Origin: an uncultured Bacteroidota bacterium
Lineage (GTDB): Bacteria; Bacteroidota; Bacteroidia; Bacteroidales; F082
Direction of reading: 5' to 3'
DNA length: 39,441 bases
NCBI GenBank assembly: GCA_937901015.1
Contig: CALCGQ010000198.1
Coordinates: 1-39,441, forward strand
Shown here piece after piece: positions 12,029 through 30,502 of this stretch. A model generated the notes under the pieces. The model was not told the origin of the DNA, did no database searches, and worked only from the letters and a program-made list of their open reading frames with translations. The translations under genes were made by a program, and so were the position numbers. Each line of letters opens with the position of its first letter. The stretch's first letter is position 1.

Positions 12029-12048
12029 TTTTTTACAGTTTTAAGTTA

Positions 12049-12426
12049 TTAATTGTTTTTTGCACCTTCTTCAATCCAATATTTTATCAGTGCAGCTTGT
12101 GAAGATGTATATTTAGCAAAATGATTCCCATCAGGTAAAGGGTAGAAATAAATTTTACTTGCATCCGGGTCTTCTGCAACCACAAGTCCTAATTGAGTAA
12201 TGCTATTATAAGCGTTATCTGCTGTTAGGTCAGGTTGGCTTACTCCAGGATGGCATCCTGTACAATTTTGTTCTTCCCAAATTGGTACAATTTCCAAAGA
12301 GAAACTGGTAGTGTCACCAGGCGGAGGTGGAGGAGTGACGGGTTCCACGATGAATTTATACTGGCATGAGGCTATTGCCATCATAATCAGTGCCATTATA
12401 ATTCCGTTTAATAGTAGTTTATTCAT
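12049..12426 (-). CDS. Monohaem c-type cytochrome lipoprotein
   Basis: A 125-residue protein. The signal peptide ends in a lipobox (IASC, lipidated Cys21), followed by a Pro-rich linker (PPPPPGD) and one CTGCH haem motif (Cys55-His59). The C-terminal part ends in WIEEGAKNN, the typical close of short planctomycete/Bacteroidota-type cytochrome c domains. There is no methionine in the usual distal-ligand region; a GNHF segment sits there instead, so the distal ligand is uncertain. Co-transcribed with the DUF5777 barrel. Probable location (inference): periplasmic leaflet of the outer membrane, or the cell surface. Confidence 0.85.
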   Translation of the reverse strand: MNKLLLNGIIMALIMMAIASCQYKFIVEPVTPPPPPGDTTSFSLEIVPIWEEQNCTGCHPGVSQPDLTADNAYNSITQLGLVVAEDPDASKIYFYPLPDGNHFAKYTSSQAALIKYWIEEGAKNN

Positions 12427-15526: not shown

Positions 15527-15554
15527 AGCTATTGTTTTTGAAGGTGAGTTAAGG

Positions 15555-15593
15555 ATATTACATTTATAATTATTGCCGATTTACATGTAATAT
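15555..15593. terminator. Weak AT-rich hairpin between convergent genes
   Basis: ATATTACAT (15555-15563) pairs with ATGTAATAT (15585-15593) around a 21-base loop. It sits between the convergent AAA+ and SUKH-TPR genes, but it is AT-rich and lacks a clean T-run, so its function as terminator is doubtful. Confidence 0.35.
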
Positions 15594-15607
15594 AATACCT
15601 GTAATTG

Positions 15608-16675
15608 CTAATGTAACTCATCAATAAAATCCGAATCTGCCTGAGCCAATTCATTTTCGCCCATTGATTTGTAAACCCTATATCTTACATATAGGGCTAG
15701 TTTATATGTGTAGTCTTTTTCTAGAACTGTATTGCAATCGGATAGTGCCTTTTCATATTTACCTAGCTTTTGAAAAGCATCAGCTCTACCTGTTAGAAAT
15801 AGTAGATTATCCGGATCTAGTTTTACCGCAATGTCAAGATCAATTAATGCTTTTCGTTTGCTACCATAATCCAGAAGTAGAATTCCCCTACAATAATAAA
15901 AAAACGATTCTTTATTATTCATTTCAATTGATGCATTGAAATCTGATAAAGCTAGTTTTCGCTGACCAAGATCTAGATATGCATTTCCTCTATCACAATA
16001 CGACCAACTGCTTTTTGGGTTAAGTTTAATATAAGCTGAAGTTCGCTCAATAATTTCATCGTTGGTTTCTTCTTTTTCAACTATTTTTAATATTCCACTA
16101 TCAACAATAAACATGCTCATAAACGGACTGCCAGGTTTTGCCTTAATATCAGGAAATCCATCATTATCTACTATTTTATTTAAAAAACCATCGAAATTAT
16201 CAGCAACTTGAACATATGTGCTCATATCGCTAACATTATCTGAAATAAACACGGGTGATTCTTTTGATAGTCCCTTTTGGGAAATCACCATTATGGTTTC
16301 TTGCTTTGGAGTGTTACAGATGGGTATTATGGGAAATATTCCCTCGTAATCGTTTCCGTACATTCCACTTTCGTCTTTTAAATCGGTATACTGACTTCCT
16401 AATTCATCGAGTGTGTAGAAATAGAAACTACTCCATTTTGGACCATCTGGCTCCCAATCGGTCATGTCGATATAGTAACTTTGATCATACTCTAGTAACA
16501 TTCCTCCATTGAAGGTAGCCAAAAATTGTTTGTATGAAGCTGAAAATTCTAATCCATAAGCTTTCTCAAAAGTTTCAATTTTTTCAATATCCAATTGAGT
16601 GTTAAATTGAAATTTGGAAGTGCCTTGACGGCGCTTTTCTTCTAATTTTTTGATGCTTGAGAAACTACTTATCAC
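15608..16675 (-). CDS. SUKH (SMI1/KNR4) domain protein with C-terminal TPR repeats
   Basis: A 355-residue protein, no signal peptide, so cytoplasmic. Residues about 18-165 match the SMI1/KNR4 (SUKH) fold: IEKIETFEKAYGLEFSASYK, QFLATFNGG, and an acidic/aromatic middle. Residues about 205-350 are four TPR repeats of about 34 residues (SYCDRGNAYLDLGQRKLALS is one). The start is a GTG at 16675: a stop lies four codons upstream, and the next Met falls inside the SUKH domain. SUKH proteins are known as immunity proteins in polymorphic toxin systems and as regulatory scaffolds; no toxin gene is adjacent. It is the last gene of the seven-gene leftward operon, 36 bases after the SAM-TPR gene. Confidence 0.82.
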   Translation of the reverse strand: MISSFSSIKKLEEKRRQGTSKFQFNTQLDIEKIETFEKAYGLEFSASYKQFLATFNGGMLLEYDQSYYIDMTDWEPDGPKWSSFYFYTLDELGSQYTDLKDESGMYGNDYEGIFPIIPICNTPKQETIMVISQKGLSKESPVFISDNVSDMSTYVQVADNFDGFLNKIVDNDGFPDIKAKPGSPFMSMFIVDSGILKIVEKEETNDEIIERTSAYIKLNPKSSWSYCDRGNAYLDLGQRKLALSDFNASIEMNNKESFFYYCRGILLLDYGSKRKALIDLDIAVKLDPDNLLFLTGRADAFQKLGKYEKALSDCNTVLEKDYTYKLALYVRYRVYKSMGENELAQADSDFIDELH

Positions 16676-16711
16676 CTTGTTGAGTTATAATAAAGATTTC
16701 AGTATTAAACA

Positions 16712-18526
16712 TTATCTAATTTTATCAAGCCACTCTTTAGCTTTTTTATATTCGTTGCTTTTTAAACCAAATTTCCTTTTTCTATAGCTAAGCGATTCTG
16801 AAAAATGCTCTTTTGCAAGACTCATCTGACCATCATAATAATATGATTGAGCTATGGAGTATCTTGAATCATCAAATTCTTCGGAACCCTGACCGAATAG
16901 CTTTTCTCTAATTTCCATGGCTATTTTATGGTTTTTTATGGCAAGATCTAGTTTATTGTCCCAATAATATGATAGTCCAAGTCTATTATAACAGTTTGCT
17001 ACTGATGCATTTTCCAAGCCATATAATTCTAGTCTGATATCTAGGGCTTGGGAAAAATGATCAACAGATTGATCGTATTCTTCTAACCAGTAATAGTCTA
17101 AACCAAGATCATAATGTGACCATGCTGAAAGCTCTTTTTCATCTATGTTTGAATAGGAAATCAGAGCCTTCTGGTGATATCTTATGGCATCTTCATAGTT
17201 ATCCTGATGATACATAACATCACCCAGTTGTGAGTATGATCTTGCAGTGTCAAAATAATCTTGACCATGTATACTAACAAAACCATCTATTGACTCTTCT
17301 AGATATTTTTCAGCTTCAGTATATTCTTCTAGAGTCTTGGAAGTTGTTCCAAGTTTAAAATTAATTGTAGCTATGGTTTCTGTCTTTTCATCACTATCGA
17401 ACATCTGTTCACATAGTTTAAGTGCATAACTATATGTGCGAAGTGCTTCAGCAAAATCTTTAATTTCAATGCATGTATCGCCAGAAGCGATAACTTCATC
17501 AACTTCGGTTTTTATTTCGTCATAGTTATCCTGAGAATCGTCTGGTTTAGATGTTGGATTTATCACTTCAGAATTGGTCAAACTATCAATTTCTGCTTGA
17601 GTGTCAATAGCAAGATTTTCCATTTTAAGGGCATCCTCACTATATTCTCCCTCTACTTCAGTATAAATATCAAGGGCAGTTTTAAAATTTGGCAGAGCCT
17701 TTTTGTACTGTGATTTTTGTTGATAAACTAACCCTAAGTTATGATAAACTTCAGCCACACTTGTATGAATATCTCCATGTATATACTTTCGTATATCAAG
17801 AGAGTTTTCGTAATGGATTATAGCTTTATCATATTGACAATCATAATAATAGTCTTTTGCTAAATCAAAGCTAATTGCAGCCACTCCTTCATTATGATCA
17901 TCATCTTCATTCAATTCTTGTTGTAATTTCAGGGCCTTAGAATGATGAGTTATTGCAAGTTCATATTCTGAATCCATATAATAATCCTGCCCAAGTTGAT
18001 AGTAGGATATTACCACATCCACATCATCTTCCCCATAATTTTTAATTCTTATGGCTAGAGATTTTTTATGATTAGAAATTGCTTTTTTATACTCATTATT
18101 CATGTAGTAATTTGTCCCAATCTCATAATATAAATCCCCTACATCCGGATGTTCTTCTCCAAGCTCTTTAATTTTTGTTTTGAGCTCTTTTTTATCTTTG
18201 ATTATAGCCTCTTCATACTCGTTAAGTACTTTTTTTTGAGAAGGATAGATACGTTTAATTTCCTCAACAGAGCCTAATTTGGTAGATTTACTTCTTTTGG
18301 GTTTTTCAGTTGGAGGAGATGGAGCTTTGCCCATTACTTTTCTAGAACTAAGGTTAGTGATTTCAAAAAGTAGTTTATCCCTTATTATAGATGATGCTAT
18401 GCCGAGTTCCTTCAGCTCATTGGTTGTGGTAACTTTTGTTAACTCACTCCATGTAACATTTTTATTTTCAAATAGTTTTGAATATTCCTGAAGTCCTATT
18501 TCTTTTAACCAGTTATTAATATTCAT
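16712..18526 (-). CDS. SAM-domain protein with kinesin-light-chain-type TPR repeats
   Basis: A 604-residue cytoplasmic protein. Residues about 3-58 form a sterile alpha motif domain: WLKEIGLQEYSKLFENKNV, then a Leu-rich part ending in LKELGIASSIIRDKLL. SAM domains self-associate or bind other SAM domains. A basic linker follows (KPKRSKSTK). From about residue 105 there are two TPR arrays with a period near 42 residues, split by a linker around 310-345, with repeated A-YY-G-Y--A---H--SL-IR signatures such as YYQLGQDYYMDSEYELAITH. This is the kinesin light chain/NB-ARC-partner class of TPR. No catalytic domain is visible, so it is likely a scaffold. Gaps of 36 bases to both neighbours indicate one operon. 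Confidence 0.82.
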   Translation of the reverse strand: MNINNWLKEIGLQEYSKLFENKNVTWSELTKVTTTNELKELGIASSIIRDKLLFEITNLSSRKVMGKAPSPPTEKPKRSKSTKLGSVEEIKRIYPSQKKVLNEYEEAIIKDKKELKTKIKELGEEHPDVGDLYYEIGTNYYMNNEYKKAISNHKKSLAIRIKNYGEDDVDVVISYYQLGQDYYMDSEYELAITHHSKALKLQQELNEDDDHNEGVAAISFDLAKDYYYDCQYDKAIIHYENSLDIRKYIHGDIHTSVAEVYHNLGLVYQQKSQYKKALPNFKTALDIYTEVEGEYSEDALKMENLAIDTQAEIDSLTNSEVINPTSKPDDSQDNYDEIKTEVDEVIASGDTCIEIKDFAEALRTYSYALKLCEQMFDSDEKTETIATINFKLGTTSKTLEEYTEAEKYLEESIDGFVSIHGQDYFDTARSYSQLGDVMYHQDNYEDAIRYHQKALISYSNIDEKELSAWSHYDLGLDYYWLEEYDQSVDHFSQALDIRLELYGLENASVANCYNRLGLSYYWDNKLDLAIKNHKIAMEIREKLFGQGSEEFDDSRYSIAQSYYYDGQMSLAKEHFSESLSYRKRKFGLKSNEYKKAKEWLDKIR

Positions 18527-18562
18527 CTTTGTAACAACTCTTTATTCTATCTAATATTTATT

Positions 18563-19411
18563 TTAATTAGGGTGTAGTCTTGGGATTTCATCATCGGCAC
18601 TTTTTGTGCGTTTCCTTCGCCTTCTTGTAATTTTTGGCTTTCTTTTTACAGTGCTGGGTTTATCATCTGATGAAAAATTAAAGCTGGGAGAGTTATCGTT
18701 GTTATCCTCCCAATCGATCAAATCTGCTTTAAAATCTCTAAACCCACCTGATAGAATTGTACCGGCTGTTTCTTCGTCTTCATCATCATCATTTCTTCGT
18801 CTTCTTCTTTTAGAAGAAAAGAATAGCCACCAGACTACTTTAATGATAATGTAGACAACAGCAACAAATACGATTATGGATAAAGTAATAACTGTTAGGT
18901 TTGCCATCACTATGCATAACATGCTATAAACGAATATTCTTATTGGGGCATACTTTCCATGCATCTTAAAACTTTCGATACATATCATCACGAATAATGC
19001 TATGTATAGCAGAGTTATTATATTCATGAAATTTACAAATGTTCCCGAAGTGAATAATCCCAATATACCTTTCTCACTTAAAAACTCAAGTGAGTAGTAT
19101 GAGTATACAGCTGATCGATTTGCTAGTGAAGCTATAAATATCAATATTGATATAAACGATGAAGTTTTAAGTGCCCACCAGTTTCTTTTGAAATAACCAT
19201 CATGACCTAGAATAATTGCATAGAAGTATTCAGGTATCATCCCAATGGTAAAGGGTATCCGATAATACAATTGAAGTCCATCGTATGATGAATTGCTTTT
19301 ATTAGAAAAGTAATTGTCCATTCTGGTTGCACCAATTAATCCATATCTAGCACTTACTGCCAATAAGAATACTGAAACTGCAAACACAATAATTGAAATT
19401 AAAAAACTCAT
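18563..19411 (-). CDS. Polytopic membrane protein with charged C-terminal tail (unknown family)
   Basis: A 282-residue protein that I do not recognise. About five or six hydrophobic helices occupy residues 1-200, and the C-terminal 80 residues are soluble, very polar and low in complexity: a polybasic patch (KRRRRR) just after the last helix, an acidic patch (DDDEDEE), then two more basic patches (KRKPKITRRRRKR). The positive patch after the helix predicts that the tail is cytoplasmic, where it could contact the SAM-TPR or SUKH-TPR proteins encoded next (inference). Its start overlaps the stop of the upstream membrane protein gene by one base (TAATG), implying coupled translation. Confidence 0.7.
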   Translation of the reverse strand: MSFLISIIVFAVSVFLLAVSARYGLIGATRMDNYFSNKSNSSYDGLQLYYRIPFTIGMIPEYFYAIILGHDGYFKRNWWALKTSSFISILIFIASLANRSAVYSYYSLEFLSEKGILGLFTSGTFVNFMNIITLLYIALFVMICIESFKMHGKYAPIRIFVYSMLCIVMANLTVITLSIIVFVAVVYIIIKVVWWLFFSSKRRRRRNDDDEDEETAGTILSGGFRDFKADLIDWEDNNDNSPSFNFSSDDKPSTVKRKPKITRRRRKRTKSADDEIPRLHPN

Positions 19412-19914
19412 TATCTAATTGTTAAGATTTTTTTAAAATTCTTGAAAACATATATAACAAATATCAATAATACAATTGATTGTATTAGTAATCCTGAGAA
19501 CATACCGGTGTAGAAATACAGTATCATTACTGGGGTAAGAATTAATATCCGTATAACACCACTGTTTGGTTTATAATTTGAGAATGAGATATATGCATTT
19601 ATCAAAAGGAGAACTACAAAAACAACGTAAAAAGTATATTCTGCTATTTGCCAATAAGATTCAGAATCGGGGCTCAATTGAGCTGGCTTAAAAAACCACG
19701 CAGTCACCATTATAGTACCAAGAAGAAAGGAAATAAGCAACATCCAACTTCCCCAGGCATTTCCTTTTTCAAAACCCGTTTTAGGCTTAAAGATGGTCTC
19801 AACTTTCTCATAATACTTGATGCCAAGAAACAGTATTATAATCCACACAAACAATATTAAGTAGTGGTACCATTCAGTCATACTCATGAGATTGGAAAAA
19901 AACAGTGTCTCCAT
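19411..19914 (-). CDS. Small polytopic membrane protein (unknown family)
   Basis: A 167-residue protein that I do not recognise. It has about five hydrophobic helices (near residues 15-35, 55-75, 88-108, 120-138, 140-158) joined by short loops, and no soluble domain or obvious catalytic residue. The last bases overlap the start of the next membrane protein gene as TAATG, so the two probably form a complex. It lies 27 bases after the channel-like gene in the seven-gene operon. Confidence 0.7.
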   Translation of the reverse strand: METLFFSNLMSMTEWYHYLILFVWIIILFLGIKYYEKVETIFKPKTGFEKGNAWGSWMLLISFLLGTIMVTAWFFKPAQLSPDSESYWQIAEYTFYVVFVVLLLINAYISFSNYKPNSGVIRILILTPVMILYFYTGMFSGLLIQSIVLLIFVIYVFKNFKKILTIR

Positions 19915-19941
19915 AATTATTGGTTATTTATTTATAACAAA

Positions 19942-21798
19942 CTATGCGCTTTGCAATACCTGACTCAGTAATGTAATTGTAAATATCGTTAGTAAGAACC
20001 AACCAACTATTCCTTCTATTATAGAAAGATACATTGCAAACCATTCATCTTCTTCTGGCATTGCTCCAAATCCAATCACAACAAAACTATTTAAGCTAAG
20101 GACTAGTGAGTTTAAGAACTTAACAATAATAACATATATTAAAAACAGAGAAGATATCAGCAGTATTAGAAAACCCGACCATAGTTTTCCTGATTTAGTT
20201 TTAATTCCCGCCCAACTTCCTGAATGAAAGTTGAATAGTTTTAATAAGCTTGGAATTATATCATATCTAAACTTACCAAGAAAATGCAACGGACCACCAA
20301 ATAGTTTTAGGATTCTTGGCATTTCCTTGCCTTCAGATTGGTACTTCTTTCGCAATTCCTGAATATCATTATTGTCGAGAGTGATCTCTTTTGTAAAAAC
20401 GGCATCAATGGGCTGGTCAGTTGTGATGTATTCGGAAAATCGACTAAATTGATGCAGGTAATATCTGTAATTCATTCCATCCCACCTTGAAAATGAAAAC
20501 ATGTACAAAACTGTGAAAATCATCAATATCCATAAGGATTGGATTAGTGATTTTCCCGGGTTTGTGGCATAATCTGAGAAAAACTTAAGAAAGACATTTA
20601 GCTTGTAATTTATTAAATTGTTAAATGAAGGGTTTATTTTCTGTGTGTGTGCCTGTTTCCGCGTTTCAATATCCTTTATCTCAACATAGGAACCATTAGC
20701 AGAAGTTATGTCACCACGTCCATGATACAACCCGTTAAATTTACTGTAAGCACTTATAAGATCGTTGTAACTAAGATTATTTGATAGCTCAAGGTCGCTA
20801 ACCGCCTGGTACGGGATAATTAGTTCAGAATCCTCTTTATGGAAAATGGCAAACTTTTCACCCCCAAGATTATACCAAGGTACATTCGTATTAGATTCGG
20901 GGAAATCAAAATTTAGAATCCCGATATAATTCTCAACATAAAGCGAATCTATCAACAATGACTTGCTTACTTCGGCATAACTAAGGTTCAAAGTTTGTAG
21001 ATGATTTCTGAACATTGTTAATTCATTAATCTCAGAACCTTCAAGATTTATTGAGAAAATATTTTTTATACCATTGTTTTTGAAGGTATTTTGATCAAGC
21101 ACTAAGCTCTCAATGGATAAAGCATTGAGGTTAAGCATATAATATGTTTGCTCATAATCACGTTCAGAGAATTCAATTGAATCTGCCATAAACTCACAAT
21201 TCACAATTGATAATTCTCCAATTGGGTTGTCAATGGTGAAAGTGGTGTGGAATTGGTTTTTATTGACTTTTAGACTTTTAATCTGAAAAGATTCACCTCT
21301 AAAGGAGACATCATTAAAAAACTTACAATTTTCAATAATTGTAGGATAACTACTTATCTGAAAGCAATTGTTGAATTCAATTGGTGATAAGAATTCACAT
21401 CCAACAATATTGAGTTTTGAAAAATCCCACCAGCTGAACACCAATGGAGAATTTTCGGAGAGATTTATCTTACAATTATAAAAATAGACTTTCTTAGGTG
21501 ATCTGTTTTTTTGTGATAAACTGTAAAGACTAAAAAAGACTTTATCAATAAGAAATCCATCATCTGATTCATCATTAATGATTTCATAATCGCTAATAAT
21601 AATCTCAACTTCTTCTGATTGCATTAATTTGTTAAGAGTGGTGAGGTTGATTGTTTCTCTTTCATTATTTTCAACAAACTCTTCTTCCTCAACAACTTCC
21701 TCTTCCTGTAGTATCGGAATGTTTGCTTGCAAATTTAACCAGCAAATAGTTGATAGAAAGATGATTACAAATCCTAAAAAGTAAGTGCTTTTTCTCAT
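19942..21798 (-). CDS. Beta-helix protein fused to a K+-channel-like pore with degenerate filter
   Basis: A 618-residue protein with an N-terminal hydrophobic signal or anchor (about residues 7-24), an acidic stretch (EEEVVEEEEF), then about 300 residues of short irregular repeats (IVGCEF, IIENCKFF, SIVNCEF, VLDQNTF) suggesting a right-handed beta-helix related to pentapeptide-repeat proteins. A helical segment with YHGRGDITSANGSYVE precedes a membrane helix near 410-430, and the C-terminal 90 residues hold two helices flanking VIGFGAMPE (574-582). This layout is that of pentapeptide-repeat/Ion_trans_2 channels, whose filter is TVGYGD or TLGYGD; here it is VIGFGA. The start overlaps the upstream stop by one base. 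Channel activity is uncertain. Confidence 0.68.
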   Translation of the reverse strand: MRKSTYFLGFVIIFLSTICWLNLQANIPILQEEEVVEEEEFVENNERETINLTTLNKLMQSEEVEIIISDYEIINDESDDGFLIDKVFFSLYSLSQKNRSPKKVYFYNCKINLSENSPLVFSWWDFSKLNIVGCEFLSPIEFNNCFQISSYPTIIENCKFFNDVSFRGESFQIKSLKVNKNQFHTTFTIDNPIGELSIVNCEFMADSIEFSERDYEQTYYMLNLNALSIESLVLDQNTFKNNGIKNIFSINLEGSEINELTMFRNHLQTLNLSYAEVSKSLLIDSLYVENYIGILNFDFPESNTNVPWYNLGGEKFAIFHKEDSELIIPYQAVSDLELSNNLSYNDLISAYSKFNGLYHGRGDITSANGSYVEIKDIETRKQAHTQKINPSFNNLINYKLNVFLKFFSDYATNPGKSLIQSLWILMIFTVLYMFSFSRWDGMNYRYYLHQFSRFSEYITTDQPIDAVFTKEITLDNNDIQELRKKYQSEGKEMPRILKLFGGPLHFLGKFRYDIIPSLLKLFNFHSGSWAGIKTKSGKLWSGFLILLISSLFLIYVIIVKFLNSLVLSLNSFVVIGFGAMPEEDEWFAMYLSIIEGIVGWFLLTIFTITLLSQVLQSA

Positions 21799-24407
21799 TA
21801 TGATTTCTTTAGCAATTCTGTTTTAAGGTTTATTTTTTTTACCGAATTATCGATGTCGAAGTTAAACAATAAATCACCAGAGTCTTTAAAAAGCTTAATG
21901 GAATTCATATCGAGCCAGTGTTTACCACCGCCAACATATATTCCTGAAAGTACTTCAACAAGGATATTCCCGCTTTTGTACCTAACAATTCTGATTCTTG
22001 CATCATTACCAATTTTTATCTTATCAAGAATAATTGGTTTTTCCTGAGATGTTTTAATGGTAATAATTCCTTTATCATTTTTAACAAACTTCATGCTGGT
22101 AAGATTTTCATATATTCCCGAAGCATAGTCGCTAAAATTACTGTTATAGGTGTCGAATGTAGATTTAATCTCCGATCCTTGGATCTCAATGGTGTTAGCC
22201 TTGAGTAAGTTCAATGCAGAAAATAAACCTGCTATGGTTGCTTCATATTCATTTTGCTTGAGTTTAATATCGGTTTCATGAAGTGTTACCGGAATGTTTA
22301 ATTCTGAACCAAAATCATAATTTGTAAAATCATTATTATTCATTCCTGAAGTAGCAAAAAATGAGCCCTTAATAACTGCATTTCTAGCTTGATCTATTTC
22401 CAGTCCGTAGTGATTAAAGTCTTCGCTTTGGCTATATAATTTGGCCATAATTTTTTCACCAGATGGATTAAAAATAGCCACAAACATAAAGTCAAGGTCA
22501 TGATCAAGTTTATCTATTCCGGCTTTTTTCACCCAATTTAAATTTCCGTCTAATGAATAGCTAGCTATAAAAACATCCGGGGCACCAGTGGCAGTTATTT
22601 CAGTATCCAAGAAATGCAGATCATTTTCGAAACTGCCATACAAATAGATAGTATTATTTCCATCAAAGCAAAGACTTAAGCCAATGTCGTTACCTTCTCC
22701 GGTTGCTGATTTAATCCAAACGATACGAAGATCTTTATCATATTTAGCAATAAAAACATCTCTACCATCATATTCTGAACTTATCTTATTGCCACCAAAG
22801 TCTGCTTTATCAATAAAATATCCACACACATAGTAGTTGCCTTGATTATCGGTTATTACATCCGATAATCTATCTGATTTAAAACCACCATAGTTGTTTG
22901 TAATACTCCATATTTGTTCTGAAGCTTTGTTTAATGAAGTGTTATTATCAACATCATAAATTGTAGCTCTTTCATCTTTAACAGTTGGCATAACAATACC
23001 AACAGGAGCTCCAAAAAATGTTGGGTCGGAAATGGTGAAATTTCGGTTTTTATAGTTGAAATAGTCACCGGTTGGATTATCACTAAAATCTATTGCTGTG
23101 GCCATATGGCCAGGAAACCCAACAGCAACAACCTCCTTATTAATAAGTGTTTTTACTAAATAAGAGAATAATACTGATCTATCTTCACAATCAGAAAACT
23201 GATAATGAAGCACCTCATCTGCAAAAAAGTATCTTTCAGTACCATAAGCATATTGATCGGTTTTATAACCAAATGCTTGTTGTGTAAAGCTTAATAATAA
23301 ATTGGCCGATTCGATGTCGCCTTTACCATCTAATAATGGCTCAAAAGCTTTCTTTACTGATGTTTTAGTCCTTTCACAAACCACAGAATTGAAATAAACA
23401 ATAATTTCAGAAAGAGGTATAGTCTTATAGAATCTTATCATTTCTTCATCGTAATCCAGTTTAAGAGTATGCTTAACACCTTCATATGTGAAATGGTAAT
23501 CACGACTTTTCTTTATTGGATTTGTATTAAATGGTCTGTTTATGCTAACATCCATAATGATATCAGCTTCAGGAAAATCATCTTGATATGTCTGAATTTC
23601 ATTACCATCTCCATCTATAATATAATACTTAGTCGAATTAAGTATGACAAAGTCAATATTATACATATTATATATGGAAGGCAGCAGGAGAAAAAGTTCC
23701 TTATCATTAAAACCAACTTTTGCTTTGTAACGACTTCTGTTTAACATAGTCCATTGAAATGCAATCTGTAAGTTTGGAGAGGAAGGGTAGATTTGTTGAC
23801 TACATTCCTTAATAAGCTGATAGTAAGCCCAATTATTTAAGTTAAGAGTATTGGCAACCTCACTAACCTGATAGAGAAAATGATTGTAATTAAGCTCAGC
23901 GAATTCCGTCCAAAGTTTACTAGCATTTTCCGGTGATGGCTGAGTTTCTTTAACAGCTGAGAATCTACTATCAAGGTTGAAATATAGGGGCCATCCCAGA
24001 AAGTCCACATCTATTTTTTGAATTTCAAAGTCAATATCTTCGGTTTTTTTAATCCCAGGATATGCTGGCCCTTGATAGGTAATGGCATAATTTCCAACTT
24101 CGTAATCCAGTGAATTTCCTGTTATTACAACTTCTTCAAATTCAGGAATGTTATCTGGCTTTGGAGATAGAGTTTGAACTTCACCTTTTTCTATAGTTTG
24201 CGAAGAGAAACCATCAGTGAGATAGTTTGAAAAATCAATATCTATTTGAACTACAAAATCATCAAACTTTTGTTGGGTTTCTTTTTCAAACGTTGAATAT
24301 TCTTCACGAATCTGCTTTTTAAAGTCCTCAAAGGTTTGAGACAAAAGAGGACTGTTAAAAAACAAAATAGAGGTGACCCAAACAACAATTATTGCTGGCC
24401 TTTTCAT
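21798..24407 (-). CDS. Secreted transglutaminase-like protein with SBBP-type beta-propeller repeats
   Basis: An 869-residue exported protein (signal peptide ending near residue 23, LLSQ). Residues about 370-470 resemble a transglutaminase-like cysteine peptidase core: Cys407 in FSDCEDRS, His434 in GHMATA and Asp461 in TISDPT, the expected Cys-His-Asp order. Residues about 500-660 contain SBBP-type beta-propeller repeats (DNQGNYYVCGYF, DVFIAKYD, FDGNNTIYLYGSF, DVFIASYSLDGNLNW). The N-terminal 350 residues are mixed and I recognise no family; the C-terminal 180 are beta-rich. It lies 17 bases after the LPP20-like gene and overlaps the channel-like gene by one base (TAATG). Probably periplasmic or surface-bound; enzymatic activity is inferred from the triad only. 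Confidence 0.65.
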   Translation of the reverse strand: MKRPAIIVVWVTSILFFNSPLLSQTFEDFKKQIREEYSTFEKETQQKFDDFVVQIDIDFSNYLTDGFSSQTIEKGEVQTLSPKPDNIPEFEEVVITGNSLDYEVGNYAITYQGPAYPGIKKTEDIDFEIQKIDVDFLGWPLYFNLDSRFSAVKETQPSPENASKLWTEFAELNYNHFLYQVSEVANTLNLNNWAYYQLIKECSQQIYPSSPNLQIAFQWTMLNRSRYKAKVGFNDKELFLLLPSIYNMYNIDFVILNSTKYYIIDGDGNEIQTYQDDFPEADIIMDVSINRPFNTNPIKKSRDYHFTYEGVKHTLKLDYDEEMIRFYKTIPLSEIIVYFNSVVCERTKTSVKKAFEPLLDGKGDIESANLLLSFTQQAFGYKTDQYAYGTERYFFADEVLHYQFSDCEDRSVLFSYLVKTLINKEVVAVGFPGHMATAIDFSDNPTGDYFNYKNRNFTISDPTFFGAPVGIVMPTVKDERATIYDVDNNTSLNKASEQIWSITNNYGGFKSDRLSDVITDNQGNYYVCGYFIDKADFGGNKISSEYDGRDVFIAKYDKDLRIVWIKSATGEGNDIGLSLCFDGNNTIYLYGSFENDLHFLDTEITATGAPDVFIASYSLDGNLNWVKKAGIDKLDHDLDFMFVAIFNPSGEKIMAKLYSQSEDFNHYGLEIDQARNAVIKGSFFATSGMNNNDFTNYDFGSELNIPVTLHETDIKLKQNEYEATIAGLFSALNLLKANTIEIQGSEIKSTFDTYNSNFSDYASGIYENLTSMKFVKNDKGIITIKTSQEKPIILDKIKIGNDARIRIVRYKSGNILVEVLSGIYVGGGKHWLDMNSIKLFKDSGDLLFNFDIDNSVKKINLKTELLKKS

Positions 24408-24424
24408 ATTATATGTGTTTGGTC

Positions 24425-25069
24425 CTAAAAGTCAAGAATAGTGTTAAGTTGCTCAGATTGAATCTTTGCCTTATCCTTCAATTCCTTTTTGATAATATCT
24501 TTCGCCATATTTATAGCTTCATCATAAGAATAGGACATGGTTACAAACACCTCAGTGTTTTTGCCAATTGTTTTATCGGCTTCAAATAGTGTTGATGTGC
24601 GACCCATCTTTGATCCTACTATGGATTTAAAGGTAGCTACGGTTTCTGTTACGGATGCAGCTTCCTCAGCATTTAATTGCGCATTAGCGATTGTAGTTTC
24701 AATTAAACCCGCCACTTCTGTTCCTATTTGTCCGGCCAAGTTCACTTTTGCCACCTCATATGCTTGAAGTTTAGCAGCAGAATGAGTTTCTCCAACAGCA
24801 CGGGCATCAGCTACAAACCACATTTTATTTCCCTTATCGTCGGTTTCATAGCGTTTAATCCATGTTGCTTCAATTTGCTTATCCATTGGCATTTGTCCGG
24901 GAGCAACTTTAAAGCCATCCTTTTTAAGTTTTTTAGCTTCCTTTCTAGCTTGTTTGATTGCTTTGTCTTTGATTTCTTTTTTAATCTCTTTTTCACTTTG
25001 GGCAATACCTGGCATAGCAATTAATAGTGCCAAGGTAATTACAACTAGATTAATGGTCTTTTTCATCAT
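24425..25069 (-). CDS. Secreted LPP20-like protein
   Basis: A 214-residue protein with a signal peptide (cleavage near residue 23, GIAQ), a highly charged Lys/Glu helix (residues 25-52), then a segment with the look of LPP20-type domains: conserved W-F-ADARAVGE and a helix rich in Ala (AKLQAYEVAKVNLAGQIGTE). LPP20-like proteins are often encoded with CsgG-like proteins in Bacteroidota, and a CsgG-like gene lies on the divergent side. There is no lipobox. Two adjacent ATGs (25069 and 25066) could start it. It is the first gene of the seven-gene leftward operon, with a -7 box at 25116-25123. Confidence 0.62.
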   Translation of the reverse strand: MMKKTINLVVITLALLIAMPGIAQSEKEIKKEIKDKAIKQARKEAKKLKKDGFKVAPGQMPMDKQIEATWIKRYETDDKGNKMWFVADARAVGETHSAAKLQAYEVAKVNLAGQIGTEVAGLIETTIANAQLNAEEAASVTETVATFKSIVGSKMGRTSTLFEADKTIGKNTEVFVTMSYSYDEAINMAKDIIKKELKDKAKIQSEQLNTILDF

Positions 25070-25115
25070 ATTGGTTTAATTTGAGTTTTAATTTAGAATT
25101 GTTAAAAATTCACAT

Positions 25116-25123
25116 CAAATATA
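25116..25123 (-). promoter_or_regulatory. Putative -7 box (TATATTTG) for the seven-gene leftward operon
   Basis: On the minus strand this is an exact TAnnTTTG match, giving a leader of about 40 bases to the ATG at 25069. No clear -33 TTTG is visible. On the plus strand the only candidate for the divergent gene is TAGTTTTA (25166-25173), one mismatch away. Confidence 0.5.
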
Positions 25124-25189
25124 GAAAAAAATATTGTATTGTTATAAAATTAACAATAAATAATGTAGTTTTACAATTAATTACTGCTA

Positions 25190-25915
25190 ATGACAACATT
25201 TTCGACTCAAATATTTTCTTGTCCCCATTGTAATAAAAGGATGTATACATATGAGCTATCTTCTTATCATGTATATAGTTCCGAGGTTTATTCAGATGGG
25301 TATGTTGATAATAATCCACCTGTTTCCTTAAATAAGCAGATTGTTATATGCCATTATTGTCATAGAGAGATTTGGAGAGAAGATATCTCATTTGAAGAAT
25401 CATATTCAACAAATGATCTACCTAAATGTAAAGATGTTTACGATTTGCCAATTGGTAAAGATTTGAATTCTAACCATAGCATTTCCACATATTATTTAAA
25501 GTTGATTGAAAATGGATTTGCCAATACTAAGGATAGAGAGATACATCTACGAACAGAAATATGGCACCTATTAAATAATACCTATAGGTATGGGGGCCAT
25601 TCCGTTTTACATCAATTATTATTAGGAAGATACAAATATGCATTGCATAGATTTAAACAAAGGAAGCAGTTTAGAAAAGAGAGCATAGAAGCGCGTATTC
25701 TTTTAAAGGAAAATCTAAAAAATCTAATAAAAATATACATCCCTGAAAATGATGATGATTGGTTGTGGGTTGCTGAAATGCAAAGGGAAATTGGTAATTT
25801 TAGACAGGCTAGTTCATCTTTGAGGAAAATCGCTACATCACCGAAGTCAGACGCATATAAACTAATAAAGAAAAAGATATTTCTAAGACAATCAAAGGTC
25901 TTCAAACTGAATTAA
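25190..25915 (+). CDS. Zinc-ribbon protein with helical C-terminal part (unknown family)
   Basis: A 241-residue cytoplasmic protein that I cannot place in a family. CPHC (residues 11-14) and a second CHYC about 48 residues later form a probable four-cysteine zinc ribbon. The remainder is helical and basic; a segment near residues 185-215 (WLWVAEMQREIGNFRQASSS) resembles a TPR hairpin. The layout, zinc ribbon then TPR-like helices, recalls DUF2225-type proteins, but the similarity is only general. It starts 120 bases from the divergent operon and ends 11 bases before the CsgG-like gene, so it heads the rightward operon. Confidence 0.65.
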   Translation: MTTFSTQIFSCPHCNKRMYTYELSSYHVYSSEVYSDGYVDNNPPVSLNKQIVICHYCHREIWREDISFEESYSTNDLPKCKDVYDLPIGKDLNSNHSISTYYLKLIENGFANTKDREIHLRTEIWHLLNNTYRYGGHSVLHQLLLGRYKYALHRFKQRKQFRKESIEARILLKENLKNLIKIYIPENDDDWLWVAEMQREIGNFRQASSSLRKIATSPKSDAYKLIKKKIFLRQSKVFKLN

Positions 25916-25926
25916 CAAATATTAAA

Positions 25927-27207
25927 ATGGCTAAATTAAAACTCTTCTTTGGAATTATTTTATTATTCAATTTTACACAGCTCTATTCGCAGGGTGTAGA
26001 GAGTTTCATACTAAAGGCACCTGAAAAACCTTTTTATTCCATTAAAAAAATAGGAATATTGGAGTTTGATTGTAGTAATAACAGGCATATGAATGAGGTT
26101 GTTACCAATTTTATTGTAACGGACCTACTTGATCAGTATCGTGGGATTTACGATAAAAAGAGTAAATACTGGGGTTTAAAAAAAGGAAAGGAAGGACAAA
26201 CTTTCGTAAAAGGTGTTAAAACAGATTTTTATACAATAATAGAGCGCGATCAATTACAAAAAGTTTTAAGGGAACAAAGGCTTTCATTAAGTGGAGCCAT
26301 TGATGAAAGTTCAGCGGCAGAGGTTGGTAGAATATTAGGACTGGATGTAATAATTATGGGTACAGTTAGCTATAGCAGTGTTGATGAAAAAGGATCTAGT
26401 TTATTGGGTCTTGCAAGTTCTTCAGGGTCAAATTGTTTAACAAGAAAGGTTAATGCCAAGGGAACCATGAAAATGGTAAATGTACAAACTGCGCAGATTG
26501 TTGGTACCAAATCTGTCGAAACAAGATTGGAAATTTATAAATGTGATGATCAACGATCTGGAATTCCAAGACCTGAGGTTATGGCTGAAACATGTATGAA
26601 AGAGATAGCAAGGCAGTTTACAGATTATTTTGCTCCGGGCTATCAGTTCATTGAATATGAATTCGAAAAAATTAAAAATAAAGAGTTTCGTACAAAGGGT
26701 AAAGAAGCGATGGGCTTCATTGAAAATGGTGATCTTGATAGGGCTTTCCCAATCGTATATGCCATGTTTGAAGCCGATTCATATAATCCTAAAGCTGCTT
26801 ATAATCTAGGAATTCTATATGAAATGGTAGGTTCATATCCTGATGCATCAGAGTATTATGGCATTGCTTATGAATTGGATTATACAAATGATGTATACGC
26901 AAAGGCATCGAAGCGAGCAAAAGCAGGTATTGGGTTAAACGAGTATCTTGATGATATTGGACGACCAGTGGAACCATATACTTTTACCGGTGGTGGTGCC
27001 GCAGGAGCCCTTGCAGATAGGGTTGAAGTAAAAGGAAGTAGCGCTGATCGCGTTGATGTTTATGAATTGCCTGATAAGAGTTCTAAAATTGCTGCAAAGG
27101 TTCCTGGTGGGCTTGAGTTTAAAGTTATTGAGAAAAGCGGACAATTCTACAAAATTCAACTCCGTGGAACTAAAACCGGGTTTGTCCATAAATCGGATGT
27201 AAAATAG
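25927..27207 (+). CDS. CsgG/HfaB-like protein with TPR and SH3 modules
   Basis: A 426-residue exported protein. The signal peptide ends near residue 21 (LYSQ) with no lipobox cysteine. Residues about 35-240 match the CsgG/HfaB fold: IGILEFDC, IIERDQLQKVLREQRLSLSG, then GRILGLDVIIMGTVS. Residues about 260-330 hold a TPR pair (AAYNLGILYEMVGSYPDASE), and residues about 365-426 a bacterial SH3-type domain (VDVYELPDKSSKIAAKV ... GFVHKSDVK). E. coli CsgG forms a lipidated outer-membrane secretion pore; the missing lipid cysteine and added modules suggest a periplasmic scaffold instead (inference). It lies 11 bases after the zinc-ribbon gene and 29 before a multidomain LPP20/FlgO-like gene. Confidence 0.8.
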   Translation: MAKLKLFFGIILLFNFTQLYSQGVESFILKAPEKPFYSIKKIGILEFDCSNNRHMNEVVTNFIVTDLLDQYRGIYDKKSKYWGLKKGKEGQTFVKGVKTDFYTIIERDQLQKVLREQRLSLSGAIDESSAAEVGRILGLDVIIMGTVSYSSVDEKGSSLLGLASSSGSNCLTRKVNAKGTMKMVNVQTAQIVGTKSVETRLEIYKCDDQRSGIPRPEVMAETCMKEIARQFTDYFAPGYQFIEYEFEKIKNKEFRTKGKEAMGFIENGDLDRAFPIVYAMFEADSYNPKAAYNLGILYEMVGSYPDASEYYGIAYELDYTNDVYAKASKRAKAGIGLNEYLDDIGRPVEPYTFTGGGAAGALADRVEVKGSSADRVDVYELPDKSSKIAAKVPGGLEFKVIEKSGQFYKIQLRGTKTGFVHKSDVK

Positions 27208-27236
27208 ATTTTTTATTCTTACCTAAAACAATAATA

Positions 27237-29033
27237 ATGCTAATGAAAAAGCTATCCATAGTATTTCTATTATTGGGAATTACCATAACTGCGGTTGCCC
27301 AAAAGCCTGCATGGACTGATTATTATAAACGAGCGGAGATGTATCCAGAAAATGAGTTTTTGGTAGGTTATATTTCCGGCAATAATGTGGAGGATAAGGA
27401 GTCTGGTGAACTAAAATTGGTTTATGAAAGTATGGCTAAAGATAAAGTAGTTCAAAGTATTCAGGTTGAGATAGAAACTAATAATAGTCTGGAAATATCA
27501 AATATTAACGGTAGTTCAGGAGAGGAGTTTTTATCCAAGAGTGTTTCGTTTTCAAATGCGGATGTTGCAGGATTAACAACTCAGAGTTATTATGATAGAA
27601 GAAAAAAAGAAGTATTTGCAATTGCCTTTGTGAATAAAAAGGAACTTGCATTTTACTATCGGAATAAGATAAAATCAGGACAGGAGGATATTGAACAGAA
27701 ACTCAATCAGGGAAAATCATATGCGAAAAAAGGTAAGAAGGAACTGGCGTTAAAAAGTTTCTATGAAGCAATGCCAATATTGATGACCATCGATAAGGCT
27801 AGAACTTTGCTAATCGCCATGAATAGGAAGATGTATGCTGATATAAATATGGATGAAATTAATAAACTTAGGTTTGATATAAACAGTGAAATAGTAAAAC
27901 TGATTAACCCAAGCGAGCTTAACCTGAGTGAAACATCATACTTCATGGCCTATGGACTATTTCTTCAACTCGGCAAAGTTGACGGTGATATTTATATGCA
28001 TGACTTCACTTATGAAAATACAGGTTTAGTAAGTAAGTTTAGTCAGAAAATCAATCAAGAGTTTGTTTCAGCATTAATAGAAGCAGGTGATTATAATGTT
28101 AAATCTGCAAATTTTATCCGTAGCCAAATTAATATCACTGGCAATTATTGGAAAGAGGGTGATTATATTAAAATAATAGTTTCAGCTACTAGAAATGAAA
28201 AACTTATTGCCGTATCAAAAGGAAGTTTGCCGCTTTCTTGGCTACAGAATGAGAACATAGATTTTTTACCCGAGCAAATACATAGTATGATTGCACTTGA
28301 TGGTTGCACTATTATAATTAAGGAAGCTCCTAGTAAGTTGAAACTAGGAATGCCGTCTACTACTCCGATTGCTATTGAGCTAATTAAAAATAGTCATGGT
28401 ATTAATCAGCCAGTGCAAGGAGTTCCCATTGAGATAATCAATTCAGAAACAGGTGAGTCTTTATGTAATGGAGTAACAAGTATTGATGGAATTTCATTAT
28501 GCTACCTGCCAGTTATTAATAATGCAGGTGCGGTTCTTAAGCTAATTGCAAATATAAAGCTTGATAATTATTTATCAATCAACGAAGGGTCACTCTACCA
28601 TACAATTGCAACTATTCAAAATCCTGTGCTAGGTATGGAAATAGCTTTAAATACAGAGAAGCCTACTGTTTATATTGTTAGTAAAGAGTTACTTCAGGGA
28701 AGATCAATGGATATAAAAACCTTGGAACCAGTTGTTAAAGAAACTTTAGCTGACTATGGGTATAATTTCGTGGATTCAGATATCGATGCAGATTATATGA
28801 TTAATTTGGAAGCAAATACTACTACTGGTAGTAGTTATGAGGGTATATATTTTGCATTTCTGGATGCTAATTTGTCGGTAGTAAATAATATCCTAAAAGA
28901 GGAAATATTTAAAACACATCTTGATCAGGTGAAGGGCGGTGGAAGTAATTATGCAAAAGCAGGGAAGAAAGCATACATAATTGCAGCCTCTAAATTAAAA
29001 GAAACACTTAAAAATTCAATACTTGTGAAGTAG
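27237..29033 (+). CDS. Secreted multidomain LPP20/FlgO-like protein
   Basis: A 598-residue exported protein (signal peptide ending near AVAQ, residue 22; a second ATG two codons in is an equally good start). Visible parts: an LPP20-like domain at about 25-135 (KPAWTDYYKRAEMYP ... YYDRRKKEVFAIAFVNKKEL), a TPR-like helical part at 145-215, a FlgO/CsgG-like part at 225-345 (FVSALIEAGDYNV, then ITGNYWKEGDYIKI), a beta-sandwich of Big/carboxypeptidase-regulatory type at 365-455 (VPIEIINSETGESLCNGVTS), and a C-terminal domain with DSDIDADYMINL and QVKGGGSNYAKAGKKA. The parts fit envelope assemblies built around CsgG-like proteins. It lies 29 bases after the CsgG-like gene. No lipobox. Confidence 0.65.
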   Translation: MLMKKLSIVFLLLGITITAVAQKPAWTDYYKRAEMYPENEFLVGYISGNNVEDKESGELKLVYESMAKDKVVQSIQVEIETNNSLEISNINGSSGEEFLSKSVSFSNADVAGLTTQSYYDRRKKEVFAIAFVNKKELAFYYRNKIKSGQEDIEQKLNQGKSYAKKGKKELALKSFYEAMPILMTIDKARTLLIAMNRKMYADINMDEINKLRFDINSEIVKLINPSELNLSETSYFMAYGLFLQLGKVDGDIYMHDFTYENTGLVSKFSQKINQEFVSALIEAGDYNVKSANFIRSQINITGNYWKEGDYIKIIVSATRNEKLIAVSKGSLPLSWLQNENIDFLPEQIHSMIALDGCTIIIKEAPSKLKLGMPSTTPIAIELIKNSHGINQPVQGVPIEIINSETGESLCNGVTSIDGISLCYLPVINNAGAVLKLIANIKLDNYLSINEGSLYHTIATIQNPVLGMEIALNTEKPTVYIVSKELLQGRSMDIKTLEPVVKETLADYGYNFVDSDIDADYMINLEANTTTGSSYEGIYFAFLDANLSVVNNILKEEIFKTHLDQVKGGGSNYAKAGKKAYIIAASKLKETLKNSILVK

Positions 29034-29104
29034 TAATACAATCAGGTATAAATCGAACTTATCTTTTTTTCTTATCTTTATCCCACAATAAAATTCCAGG
29101 TAAG

Positions 29105-30502
29105 ATGAGTTCCGCAACCAACAGATTTTTACCATTGTTTTTGTGTTTGATATTTTTTCATTCATATTCTCAGAATGATATTAGGAATTACACAAAATCA
29201 GATGGGCTTACATCAAACACAATCCTCACATCTATAATCGACTCAAAGGGAATTATTTGGGTTGGAACTGCTCAGGGTGTTTCTGCATTCACTGGCAATA
29301 AGTGGATTGGTATTAGGAGTATTTCAGAAAAGGATGGTAGCAAAAAGGCAATGGGAAAAGTTACCCATATCTATGAAACCAGAAGCGGTGATATATGGGC
29401 CGCAGCAGAAAAAGGAATCTTTATTTTTAATGGTGAATACTGGACTCATTTCCATGATCAAGAGAATGAAGGTTTTTCAGTAAAGGAAATTTTCGAAGAT
29501 CGTCGTGGATGGATGTTTGTGCTACTTGAGAAGTATCCCAATGTTAAGGATATGGCCGATCTTGGTTTTTCCATAGTTGAAGGAGCTTTACAAATGTATA
29601 ATGGGTATCAATGGCATAAATTCCCTCGACAAATTGGAGGTTCGGCAGCTGTTCCAGTTGGTTATCCAAATGAATATTTCACATCTCACATTCAAGACTT
29701 TGAGGGAAATGTTTGGGTTACAAGCTTGGATGGTATATACCAGTTTGATGGCTTGGACTGGGAAGCTATTGATGAAGAGGACATACCGAGTGATATTTGT
29801 TTTCAGGTGCTACAATCTAACGATAAAAAGATTTGGGTGGCTACCAAGCATGGAGTTGCCATGCGAGACGGCGATGATTGGGTTAAATTTGAAAAGGAGA
29901 AAGGTATAAAAGGTAATCCTGTGACTTCAATGTTTTTGGATAAGAAAAAGAGAATATGGGTGGTTACAAGTAACGATAGCAGGTTTAAATATCTATGTTA
30001 CTACGAAAATAACAAATGGCATGCTTTCTCAAAGGATAATATGAAAGTTAAGGGGGAGTTAATTGATTTATTGGAATTCAATGATCAGATTCTTGCATTT
30101 TCCAGGAAAGGTGTTCATTTGTACAGTGATAAAAATTGGGAAAACCTAATTGTCGTTAATAAAATTAATGATGATGATTTTTCAAATGTTGTAAAAAGAA
30201 AAGATAAATCCATTTTGTTTACTGGCGATAAAGGATTGTATGAGATTAACAAAAGTGGTGTTGTTAGGTTATATGAGTTCGATGATGGATGGAAACCTAA
30301 TTTGGTGATAGAGGATAATAATAAGAATGTTTGGGTTGCTACTCAGAAAGATGGCCTTTTTATGATTAGTGATATTAAAGTTACTAGGTTCAATGAAGAT
30401 AATGGCCTATCAGATAATCAGGTAGCAAATTTGATTGAAGGCAAAGAGGGAGCAATATGGATAGTTACTAAATCTGGAATTAGTCGGATAATAATTGACT
30501 AG
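29105..30502 (+). CDS. Secreted beta-propeller of two-component-regulator (Reg_prop) type
   Basis: A 465-residue exported protein (signal peptide ending near residue 22, SYSQ). It is made of seven or eight propeller blades of the Reg_prop type, each with D-x-x-G-x-I/V-W-V-x-T-x-x-G: GIIWVGTAQGVSAF, GDIWAAAEKGIFIF, GNVWVTSLDGIYQF, KIWVATKHGVAM, NVWVATQKDGLFMI and AIWIVTKSGISRI. In hybrid two-component systems this propeller is followed by a Y_Y_Y domain, a membrane helix and a kinase; all three are missing, so it is a free-standing periplasmic or surface propeller, probably a binding domain. Last gene of the rightward operon, 71 bases after its neighbour. Its TAG overlaps the opposing stop codon in a shared CTAG. 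Confidence 0.82.
   Translation: MSSATNRFLPLFLCLIFFHSYSQNDIRNYTKSDGLTSNTILTSIIDSKGIIWVGTAQGVSAFTGNKWIGIRSISEKDGSKKAMGKVTHIYETRSGDIWAAAEKGIFIFNGEYWTHFHDQENEGFSVKEIFEDRRGWMFVLLEKYPNVKDMADLGFSIVEGALQMYNGYQWHKFPRQIGGSAAVPVGYPNEYFTSHIQDFEGNVWVTSLDGIYQFDGLDWEAIDEEDIPSDICFQVLQSNDKKIWVATKHGVAMRDGDDWVKFEKEKGIKGNPVTSMFLDKKKRIWVVTSNDSRFKYLCYYENNKWHAFSKDNMKVKGELIDLLEFNDQILAFSRKGVHLYSDKNWENLIVVNKINDDDFSNVVKRKDKSILFTGDKGLYEINKSGVVRLYEFDDGWKPNLVIEDNNKNVWVATQKDGLFMISDIKVTRFNEDNGLSDNQVANLIEGKEGAIWIVTKSGISRIIID

Follow-up and report, generated by a model that had tools for sequence, protein, structure and literature searches.

Five genes of an uncultured Bacteroidota bacterium (GTDB lineage Bacteroidales; F082), S214, TGPROP, CHAN618, CSGG and LPP598, are one co-inherited unit with conserved order. 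They lie on contig C198 of assembly GCA_937901015.1, a genome that is 85% complete in 411 contigs; the whole contig, 39,441 bases, is called the window below. An earlier reading of this DNA (the original prediction) had singled out two divergent operons as an undescribed envelope-spanning system of secreted, membrane and cytoplasmic proteins. Our own reading of the block, held tentatively and with slightly less than even confidence, is that it encodes a cell-wall-anchored, gated trans-envelope complex. The features are listed from 12791 to 30502, with the short names used throughout; module A is one of two alternative ATPase modules described below.

12791 to 15526, + strand: AAA, double AAA+ ATPase of the SpoVK/EccA/CbbX type that has an N-terminal domain of its own; the module A engine, converging on 15608.
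15608 to 16675, - strand: SUKH, cytoplasmic protein with SUKH-1 and TPR (Pfam); module A; adjoins TM282 in other loci.
16712 to 18526, - strand: SAMTPR, SAM-TPR protein (Pfam SAM_2/SAM_1/TPR_12); lineage-specific, non-core, with orthologues in loci L017-L019 only.
18563 to 19411, - strand: TM282, membrane protein of 282 aa with about four transmembrane (TM) segments and a charged C-terminal tail (hydropathy, alignment n=15); module A.
19411 to 19914, - strand: TM167, fast-evolving membrane protein of 167 aa with 4-5 TM segments (hydropathy, synteny, identities); module A.
19942 to 21798, - strand: CHAN618, core channel-like protein with signal peptide, beta-helix (probably periplasmic), TM segment, loop and two-TM pore (VIGFG, not TxGFG).
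21798 to 24407, - strand: TGPROP, core transglutaminase-like protein with signal peptide, invariant C407/H434/D461 and a match to the CylK-type propeller.
24425 to 25069, - strand: S214, core protein of 214 aa with signal peptide; its conservation is among the highest in the set (alignment n=15).
25116 to 25123, - strand: possible -7 box TATATTTG of the leftward operon.
25138 to 25157, no strand: Rex-box-like palindrome ATTGTTA-N6-TAACAAT between the operons.
25190 to 25915, + strand: ZN241, cytoplasmic core protein with two CxxC pairs (zinc-ribbon-like; alignment n=14); not found in 4/27 loci.
25927 to 27207, + strand: CSGG, core CsgG-domain protein with C-terminal SH3 domain and a signal-peptide-like start without lipobox (start read by eye; Pfam, synteny).
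27237 to 29033, + strand: LPP598, core protein of 598 aa with signal peptide, an N-terminal domain with insert, and LpoB-like, macroglobulin-like and CsgG/TraT/PelC-like domains (AlphaFold2, Foldseek, VIA).
29105 to 30502, + strand: REGPROP, Reg_prop propeller protein (Pfam Reg_prop); lineage-specific, non-core.

The seven leftward genes are separated by gaps of 17, -1, 27, -1, 36 and 36 bases and the four rightward genes by 11, 29 and 71; the coordinates and all nine gaps of this 7 + 4 arrangement are exactly as the original prediction gave them, and the double AAA+ gene that it placed at the block end does face 15608. Its domain labels CsgG, SAM-TPR, SUKH-TPR and twofold AAA also lie above Pfam cut-offs: CsgG scored 46.0 bits (cut-off 20.8), SAM_2 35.8 (20.5) and SUKH-1 (SMI1_KNR4) 46.4 (25.4), TPR passed as well, and AAA and AAA_lid_6 each matched two stretches of the AAA+ protein. 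SH3_3 reached 34.6 bits (27) and Reg_prop 77.4 (20.4). Pfam gave no above-cut-off match for TM282, TM167, CHAN618, TGPROP, S214, ZN241 or LPP598. The zinc-ribbon-like gene went unmentioned in the prediction; the HerA/MltC module and the Rex-like site lay outside its view.

In a family sample of 149 genomes, full-length CHAN618 was found in 27 (28 with the partial copy of genome G023), S214 at more than 300 bits in 28 and LPP598 at more than 500 bits in 29. The three genome sets are nested within the same 29; the contigs of G029 and G094 end inside the locus. At E 1e-5 S214 matches 47/149 and LPP598 46/149, so that the bit thresholds leave out 19 and 17 genomes with weaker relatives. A CHAN618 relative occurred in 6/294 other genomes of the order, and S214 matched 1/394 other genomes of the phylum, weakly. 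The order and direction S214-TGPROP-CHAN618 were kept in all 27 family loci with a full channel gene (with an extra ORF in L082), a count that omits L023, whose contig ends before the channel. In 25 of these the CSGG-LPP598 pair stands on the divergent side, with at least two genes in between in module B (see below); of the two loci without it, L030 meets a contig end and L091 has the pair truly separate. ZN241 was not found in L024, L028, L093 and L094. G023 seems to hold a decayed locus, its channel being cut by the contig end (L095) and what is left of LPP598, a short stretch interrupted by three stop codons, lying at G023:C17:5709-5873. The original prediction had proposed co-occurrence and gene order as its check and had named scattered homologues, with adjacency limited to the CsgG/LPP20 pair, as the contrary outcome; what we observed is conservation well beyond that pair.

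None of the 16 window ORFs of at least 100 aa outside 12791-30502 matched any of 31 stretches outside the genus, and since these stretches span at most 20 kb, it is the nearest flanks that were truly tested. Whole-chromosome synteny as the reason for the kept order was rejected because these near flanks are unshared outside the genus. Within the genus, the gene at 32227-35589 was kept in 4/4 loci; at 11108-12426 a beta-barrel DUF5777 protein and a small adjoining gene are both kept in one genus relative (L020). SAMTPR was present in 3/4 other genus loci, with one match in 31 loci elsewhere, presumably the TPR histidine kinase of L027, and REGPROP in 3/4 genus loci and 2/31 others. Both are lineage-specific and therefore outside the conserved system, which narrows the proposed eleven-gene set: its core genes do co-occur, whereas these two drop out, and SAMTPR as a scaffold of the system was rejected on the same ground.

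All 29 core-bearing family genomes carry exactly one of two ATPases. Among 31 core-bearing genomes in total, AAA was found in 20, HerA in 9, both in none and neither in 2, both of family f84. The 20 AAA+ genomes, among them G079 with an AAA fragment at a contig edge, mostly also have the SUKH-TPR gene and the two membrane genes, together module A. The AAA+ protein reached 462.5 bits with TIGR02881 (SpoVK; cut-off 422.95) and 389.1 bits with EccA, below the NCBIfam cut-off of 466.65. The locus stretches of genera g4 and g8 lack TM167, TM282 and the SUKH-TPR gene; there, between the ZN241 side and CSGG, come a HerA-like ATPase and an MltC-type lytic transglycosylase (module B). The HerA-like ATPase passes the Pfam cut-offs for HerA_C (56.4 bits) and DUF87 (54.5) and that of the conjugation coupling-protein model TrwB_AAD_bind (22.5 bits; cut-off 20.5). 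The MltC-type enzyme passes those for SLT (81.6 bits) and Mltc_N (40.1), and its E259, which we take to be the catalytic Glu, is invariant in 5/5 sequences. Hydropathy points to no membrane segment in either ATPase.

For comparison, 40 core-lacking genomes hand-picked from those listed, of about 120 in the family sample, contained no HerA, four near-full-length AAA genes and weaker AAA matches in five more. The AAA gene lies at most one ORF from the block end in 10/20 genomes (window, L020, L021, L022, L024, L083, L084, L085, L093, L094). In G004 it shares the contig at a distance of about 7 kb, and the remaining 9 genomes have it on another contig. The AAA+ gene, which the original prediction had counted with the set, is thus present in 20 of the 29 core-bearing family genomes, and its being an unrelated neighbour was rejected on the complementary ATPase pattern and its rarity in core-lacking genomes. 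In G010 a SUKH-only protein (L027:15414-15932) and a duplicated ZN241 gene precede HerA, so the SUKH domain occurs with both engine types.

Conflict systems often contain HerA, AAA+, SUKH and two-TM channels, and an anti-phage or other conflict system, in which an envelope sensor opens a channel and depolarises the cell, would suit both these parts and the patchy presence in 29/149 genomes. The best PADLOC match of the HerA-like protein is mad8 of the MADS system, at 67 bits. Against this, PADLOC 2.0, applied to ten proteins with LPP598, ZN241 and REGPROP left aside and system rules unapplied, gave only AAA, TPR and HerA-type models above 13.1 bits. The six core gene trees agree (pairwise distance r 0.85-0.95), as common descent alone would also have them do, and identities fall off with genus; congruent trees and declining identities suggest descent with loss over transfer. 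We consider a conflict system highly improbable.

CHAN618 carries three further hydrophobic segments beyond its signal peptide and beta-helix (hydropathy). AlphaFold2 block means over residues 51-390 were 72-98, the model resembles parallel beta-helices (VIA Z 15-18), which is a statement on fold only, and the profile weakly matched an McbG-like pentapeptide-repeat protein (E 0.0019). A single-sequence PDB search gave no match, nor did Foldseek of the model at E <=0.001. The protein aligns through the pore with its paralogues, and among five of these that were scanned L099 passes Ion_trans_2 (PF07885; 25.3 vs 22.5 bits), L105 falls just below (22.2) and L097 nearly reaches the cut-off of Pentapeptide_3 (26.0 vs 27). 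By way of the paralogues, the label 'channel-like' found support; together with hydropathy they suggest a putative pore of the K+-channel type, with two TM segments around a pore loop. The arrangement recalls pentapeptide-repeat ion-channel proteins (pentapeptide families with PF07885), with which CHAN618 shares the beta-helix and its putative C-terminal two-TM pore; the difference lies in the Thr of the TxG[YF]G selectivity filter.

This filter Thr (of TxGFG) is missing in 30/30 locus copies, which read VIGFG (window), LIGFG, SLGFG, AMGFG, IIGFG and similar, and is present (TLGFG) in 7/7 paralogues outside the locus. The count comprises 27 family copies, window included, and three from family f84; the truncated L095 shows no filter, and L046-L081 and L110-L141, mostly repeats of the same contigs, were left out. 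As the locus copies are related, the change does not represent 30 events. We infer from these residues that the locus pore may have an altered selectivity.

On the divergent side, the AlphaFold2 model of LPP598 (pLDDT 85) resembles LpoB over residues 229-333 (VIA Z 10.9, 99 aligned, 2.5 A), macroglobulin domains of C3/C5 over 352-474 (Z up to 10.9, 97 aligned, 2.5 A) and HpaA, CsgG, PelC and TraT over roughly 475-598 (Z 9.6-10.3, 112-124 aligned, 3.0-3.7 A), the individual values being Z 10.0 for CsgG (119, 3.7 A), 10.0 for PelC (112, 3.3 A) and 9.9 for TraT (117, 3.4 A). CsgG forms a ring, and structure-entry titles describe PelC as a dodecamer and TraT as decameric. Foldseek matched the LPHT flagellar ring (E 2.8e-4) and FlgT (E 3.5e-4) with TM-scores of just 0.17-0.28; FlgT was not among the best 50 VIA matches, which excludes nothing, and a profile search gave nothing useful. 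Residues 83-108, from the first helix to the second strand, have pLDDT <50 though the stretch is conserved. PMC12222027 links ring formation by FlgP-family proteins to an insertion between these two elements, as in FlgT. Ring formation by LPP598 is plausible because the ring-type fold matches come together with a conserved insert placed as that text has it for FlgP/FlgT. The original label 'LPP20-like' for the secreted proteins survives in part: neither S214 nor LPP598 has a Pfam match, whereas the predicted fold of LPP598 matches LpoB, CsgG and FlgT.

Compared with the FlgT/FlgP/LPP20 rings of flagella (H ring, basal disk), LPP598 gives fold matches to FlgT and to the LPHT ring, both with low TM-scores, and has a conserved insert at the position that the same paper ties to rings; it differs in its extra macroglobulin-like and CsgG-type domains and in being paired with a channel and a transglutaminase-like enzyme, and no flagellar gene is among the block's Pfam matches. 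The curli exporter CsgG resembles the block in the PF03783 domain of CSGG, which is above cut-off, and in the CsgG-type fold of LPP598. It differs in that it is a lipoprotein, whereas CSGG has an added SH3 domain and no Cys lipobox that we could see by eye in the translated N-terminus. A curlin gene or CsgA/B/E/F partners were not found among the 15 window proteins scanned, other loci being sampled and no genome-wide search made. The MltC lytic transglycosylase shares SLT and Mltc_N with the module B enzyme, which is found in 9 HerA loci and at a second locus of G080 and is lacking from the window block. Module A's AAA+ protein sides with SpoVK of the EccA/SpoVK/CbbX group, short of the type VII EccA cut-off, as module B's does with HerA-like ATPases through HerA_C and DUF87; no type VII secretion or sporulation gene was among the block's matches. 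Searching open-licence PMC papers for the set and its parts, a limited test, brought up no description of this gene set, and within that scope the original statement that no described system has it is supported.

An export machine would assemble much of this differently: the CsgG-type ring would be the outer-membrane exit, the lytic enzyme would open the wall, the AAA+ or HerA ATPase would feed a protein or other polymer, and the channel protein would serve as membrane platform or energy coupler. The CsgG, PelC and TraT-type domains fit such a machine, as do the match of the HerA-like ATPase to conjugation coupling proteins, the sub-cut-off EccA score of the AAA+ protein and the SLT-type enzyme with invariant E259. 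On the other hand, the mapped loci have no recurring substrate gene next to the block, CSGG shows no lipobox by eye, and neither ATPase has a membrane segment by hydropathy; curli partners were sought within the sampled proteins, not genome-wide. On balance we regard export as unlikely.

The leftward operon also encodes the transglutaminase-like protein TGPROP. Its C407, H434 and D461 are invariant in 16/16 aligned sequences and by analogy would correspond to the Cys-His-Asp triad of transglutaminase-like cysteine enzymes; its propeller matches the CylK-type propeller in a profile search (E about 1e-19). The name 'transglutaminase-like propeller' is borne out by these two features, whereas Pfam is silent on the window protein. 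For S214, a single-sequence PDB search returned no match and a profile search nothing useful. In ZN241, C54 and C57 are invariant and C11 and C14 are kept at >=90% (alignment n=14).

Relatives of the core also occur in other company. The second locus of G080 (L155:5048-12867) holds, in one run, a TGPROP relative, a 263-aa protein, a FISUMP protein whose caspase match is sub-threshold, an LPP598 relative and an MltC-type enzyme that falls below the NCBIfam MltC cut-off. At L036 a TGPROP relative is followed by a PEGA protein and a protein whose LPP20 match is just below cut-off (24.6 vs 25.9), and in G252 a TGPROP relative adjoins an S214 relative. These loci therefore tie TGPROP, LPP20/CsgG-type proteins and wall lysis together beyond the block locus. 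Separately, in genus g14 (L149, L150, L152), S214 relatives stand beside a gene with a VxVSGEYRY motif, LPP20-type by eye; no channel was found in g14.

The spacer between the operons holds ATTGTTATAAAATTAACAAT at 25138-25157. This palindrome is kept with 0-2 mismatches in 11/11 loci of genera g1, g10 and g16 (window, L017-L023, L084, L089, L092); the comparison covered 34 rows, three of which are repeat entries for the same genomes. In the genome, the pattern occurs without mismatch twice, once in the window and once at G000:C222:5829-5848 (L177:1501-1520), 5 bases upstream of the first ATG of a rex gene (NF003995, 204.6 bits, cut-off 126). PMC9600882 gives TTGTTAANNNNTTAACAA as a Clostridiaceae Rex motif; the window site departs from it at one specified base. 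Allowing one mismatch gives 18 sites in the genome, against 16 for the reversed control; weight therefore falls on the two exact sites alone, and the site as the mark of a large regulon was rejected on that count. In the window alone, chance would give a mean of 1.04 sites with at most two mismatches; one was seen, and it has none. Rex control of the block in part of the family is well suggested by these sites. No promoter having both Bacteroidota boxes was found between the operons of the window; 6/26 rows show one, toward S214. By the Bacteroidota promoter consensus, 25116-25123 is a possible -7 box. The same palindrome, with one mismatch, occurs at L145:7150, L146:6623 and L147:12531, upstream of a large gene adjoining S214 paralogues; in L145 this gene is an aconitase (TIGR01340 above cut-off), and the L147 protein starts alike.

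Several observations weigh against a gated trans-envelope complex. Three genomes, G018, G031 and G035, have TM282, SUKH and AAA on one contig and no full core genes: G018 has ZN241 in addition, G035 has TM167 and two ORFs between SUKH and AAA as well as two weaker S214 relatives elsewhere in the genome, and the G031 contig measures 5.3 kb. The cytoplasmic/membrane half can therefore stand alone, and the two halves are separable modules. In G079 the CSGG/LPP598 part lies apart from the remaining genes. All six trees unite the HerA genomes in one clade (support 1.0), so the engine may have been exchanged just once. The membrane half of CHAN618 is mostly modelled at pLDDT <50, so the pore rests on sequence, and the window protein reaches no Pfam channel model. 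S214, which has no demonstrated fold, and LPP598 have dissimilar profiles (hhalign probability 6.6). An N-terminal likeness between TGPROP and the MltC-type enzyme is at best suggestive, with probability 74.6 over 51 columns, signal peptide included, and the palindrome has at least three mismatches in 24 other rows outside g1, g10 and g16.

Separable halves and the split locus in G079 are what would be expected of co-regulated envelope-maintenance genes without a single complex, each product acting alone on wall or outer membrane and the regulon being under selection; shared regulation would likewise favour two tight divergent operons. Loose co-regulation would not require a core that co-occurs almost perfectly or an ATPase pattern as strict as one of two, and the envelope and cytoplasmic/membrane halves are joined in most AAA-type core-bearing genomes. 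We deem such a loose set somewhat unlikely. Of the original claim of 'one assembly linking outer and inner envelope', the conserved unit stands, whereas the halves are separable and the physical complex of these proteins is what we infer.

If the gated, wall-anchored complex is nevertheless what the block encodes, CSGG, LPP598 and perhaps S214 would form one or more rings on the outer-membrane/peptidoglycan side, where the SH3 domain of CSGG would hold peptidoglycan. TGPROP, helped in the HerA lineage by the MltC-type lytic transglycosylase, would trim or cross-link wall peptides, which would allow the assembly to cross the wall or sense it. The beta-helix of inner-membrane CHAN618 may dock on the periplasmic part and so couple the periplasmic state to a pore of potassium-channel ancestry with an altered filter. 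A cytoplasmic ATPase, either AAA+ with the SUKH-TPR adaptor and the two membrane proteins or HerA, would assemble, reset or drive the complex, and in the genera nearest the window expression would answer to NADH/NAD+ through Rex. In a bolder form, which strikes us as improbable, this would be a new type of envelope machine, a redox-controlled wall-remodelling conduit in which a CsgG/FlgT-type outer ring is mechanically coupled across the periplasm to an inner-membrane channel of potassium-channel ancestry and the engine has been exchanged wholesale, AAA+, SUKH and two membrane proteins for HerA and a lytic transglycosylase.

In a named genome collection we counted 32 loci, 29 labelled Bacteroidota of some rank, two Chlorobiota and one a Gracilibacteria fragment. 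All come from metagenome-assembled genomes, which would explain why the system has been overlooked. If our reading is true, some Bacteroidales own an envelope-spanning system that joins ring-type proteins of the outer membrane, wall enzymes and a relative of ion channels; the natural engine swap would then be a ready test of the ATPase's role, and the changed filter a test of what passes the pore.

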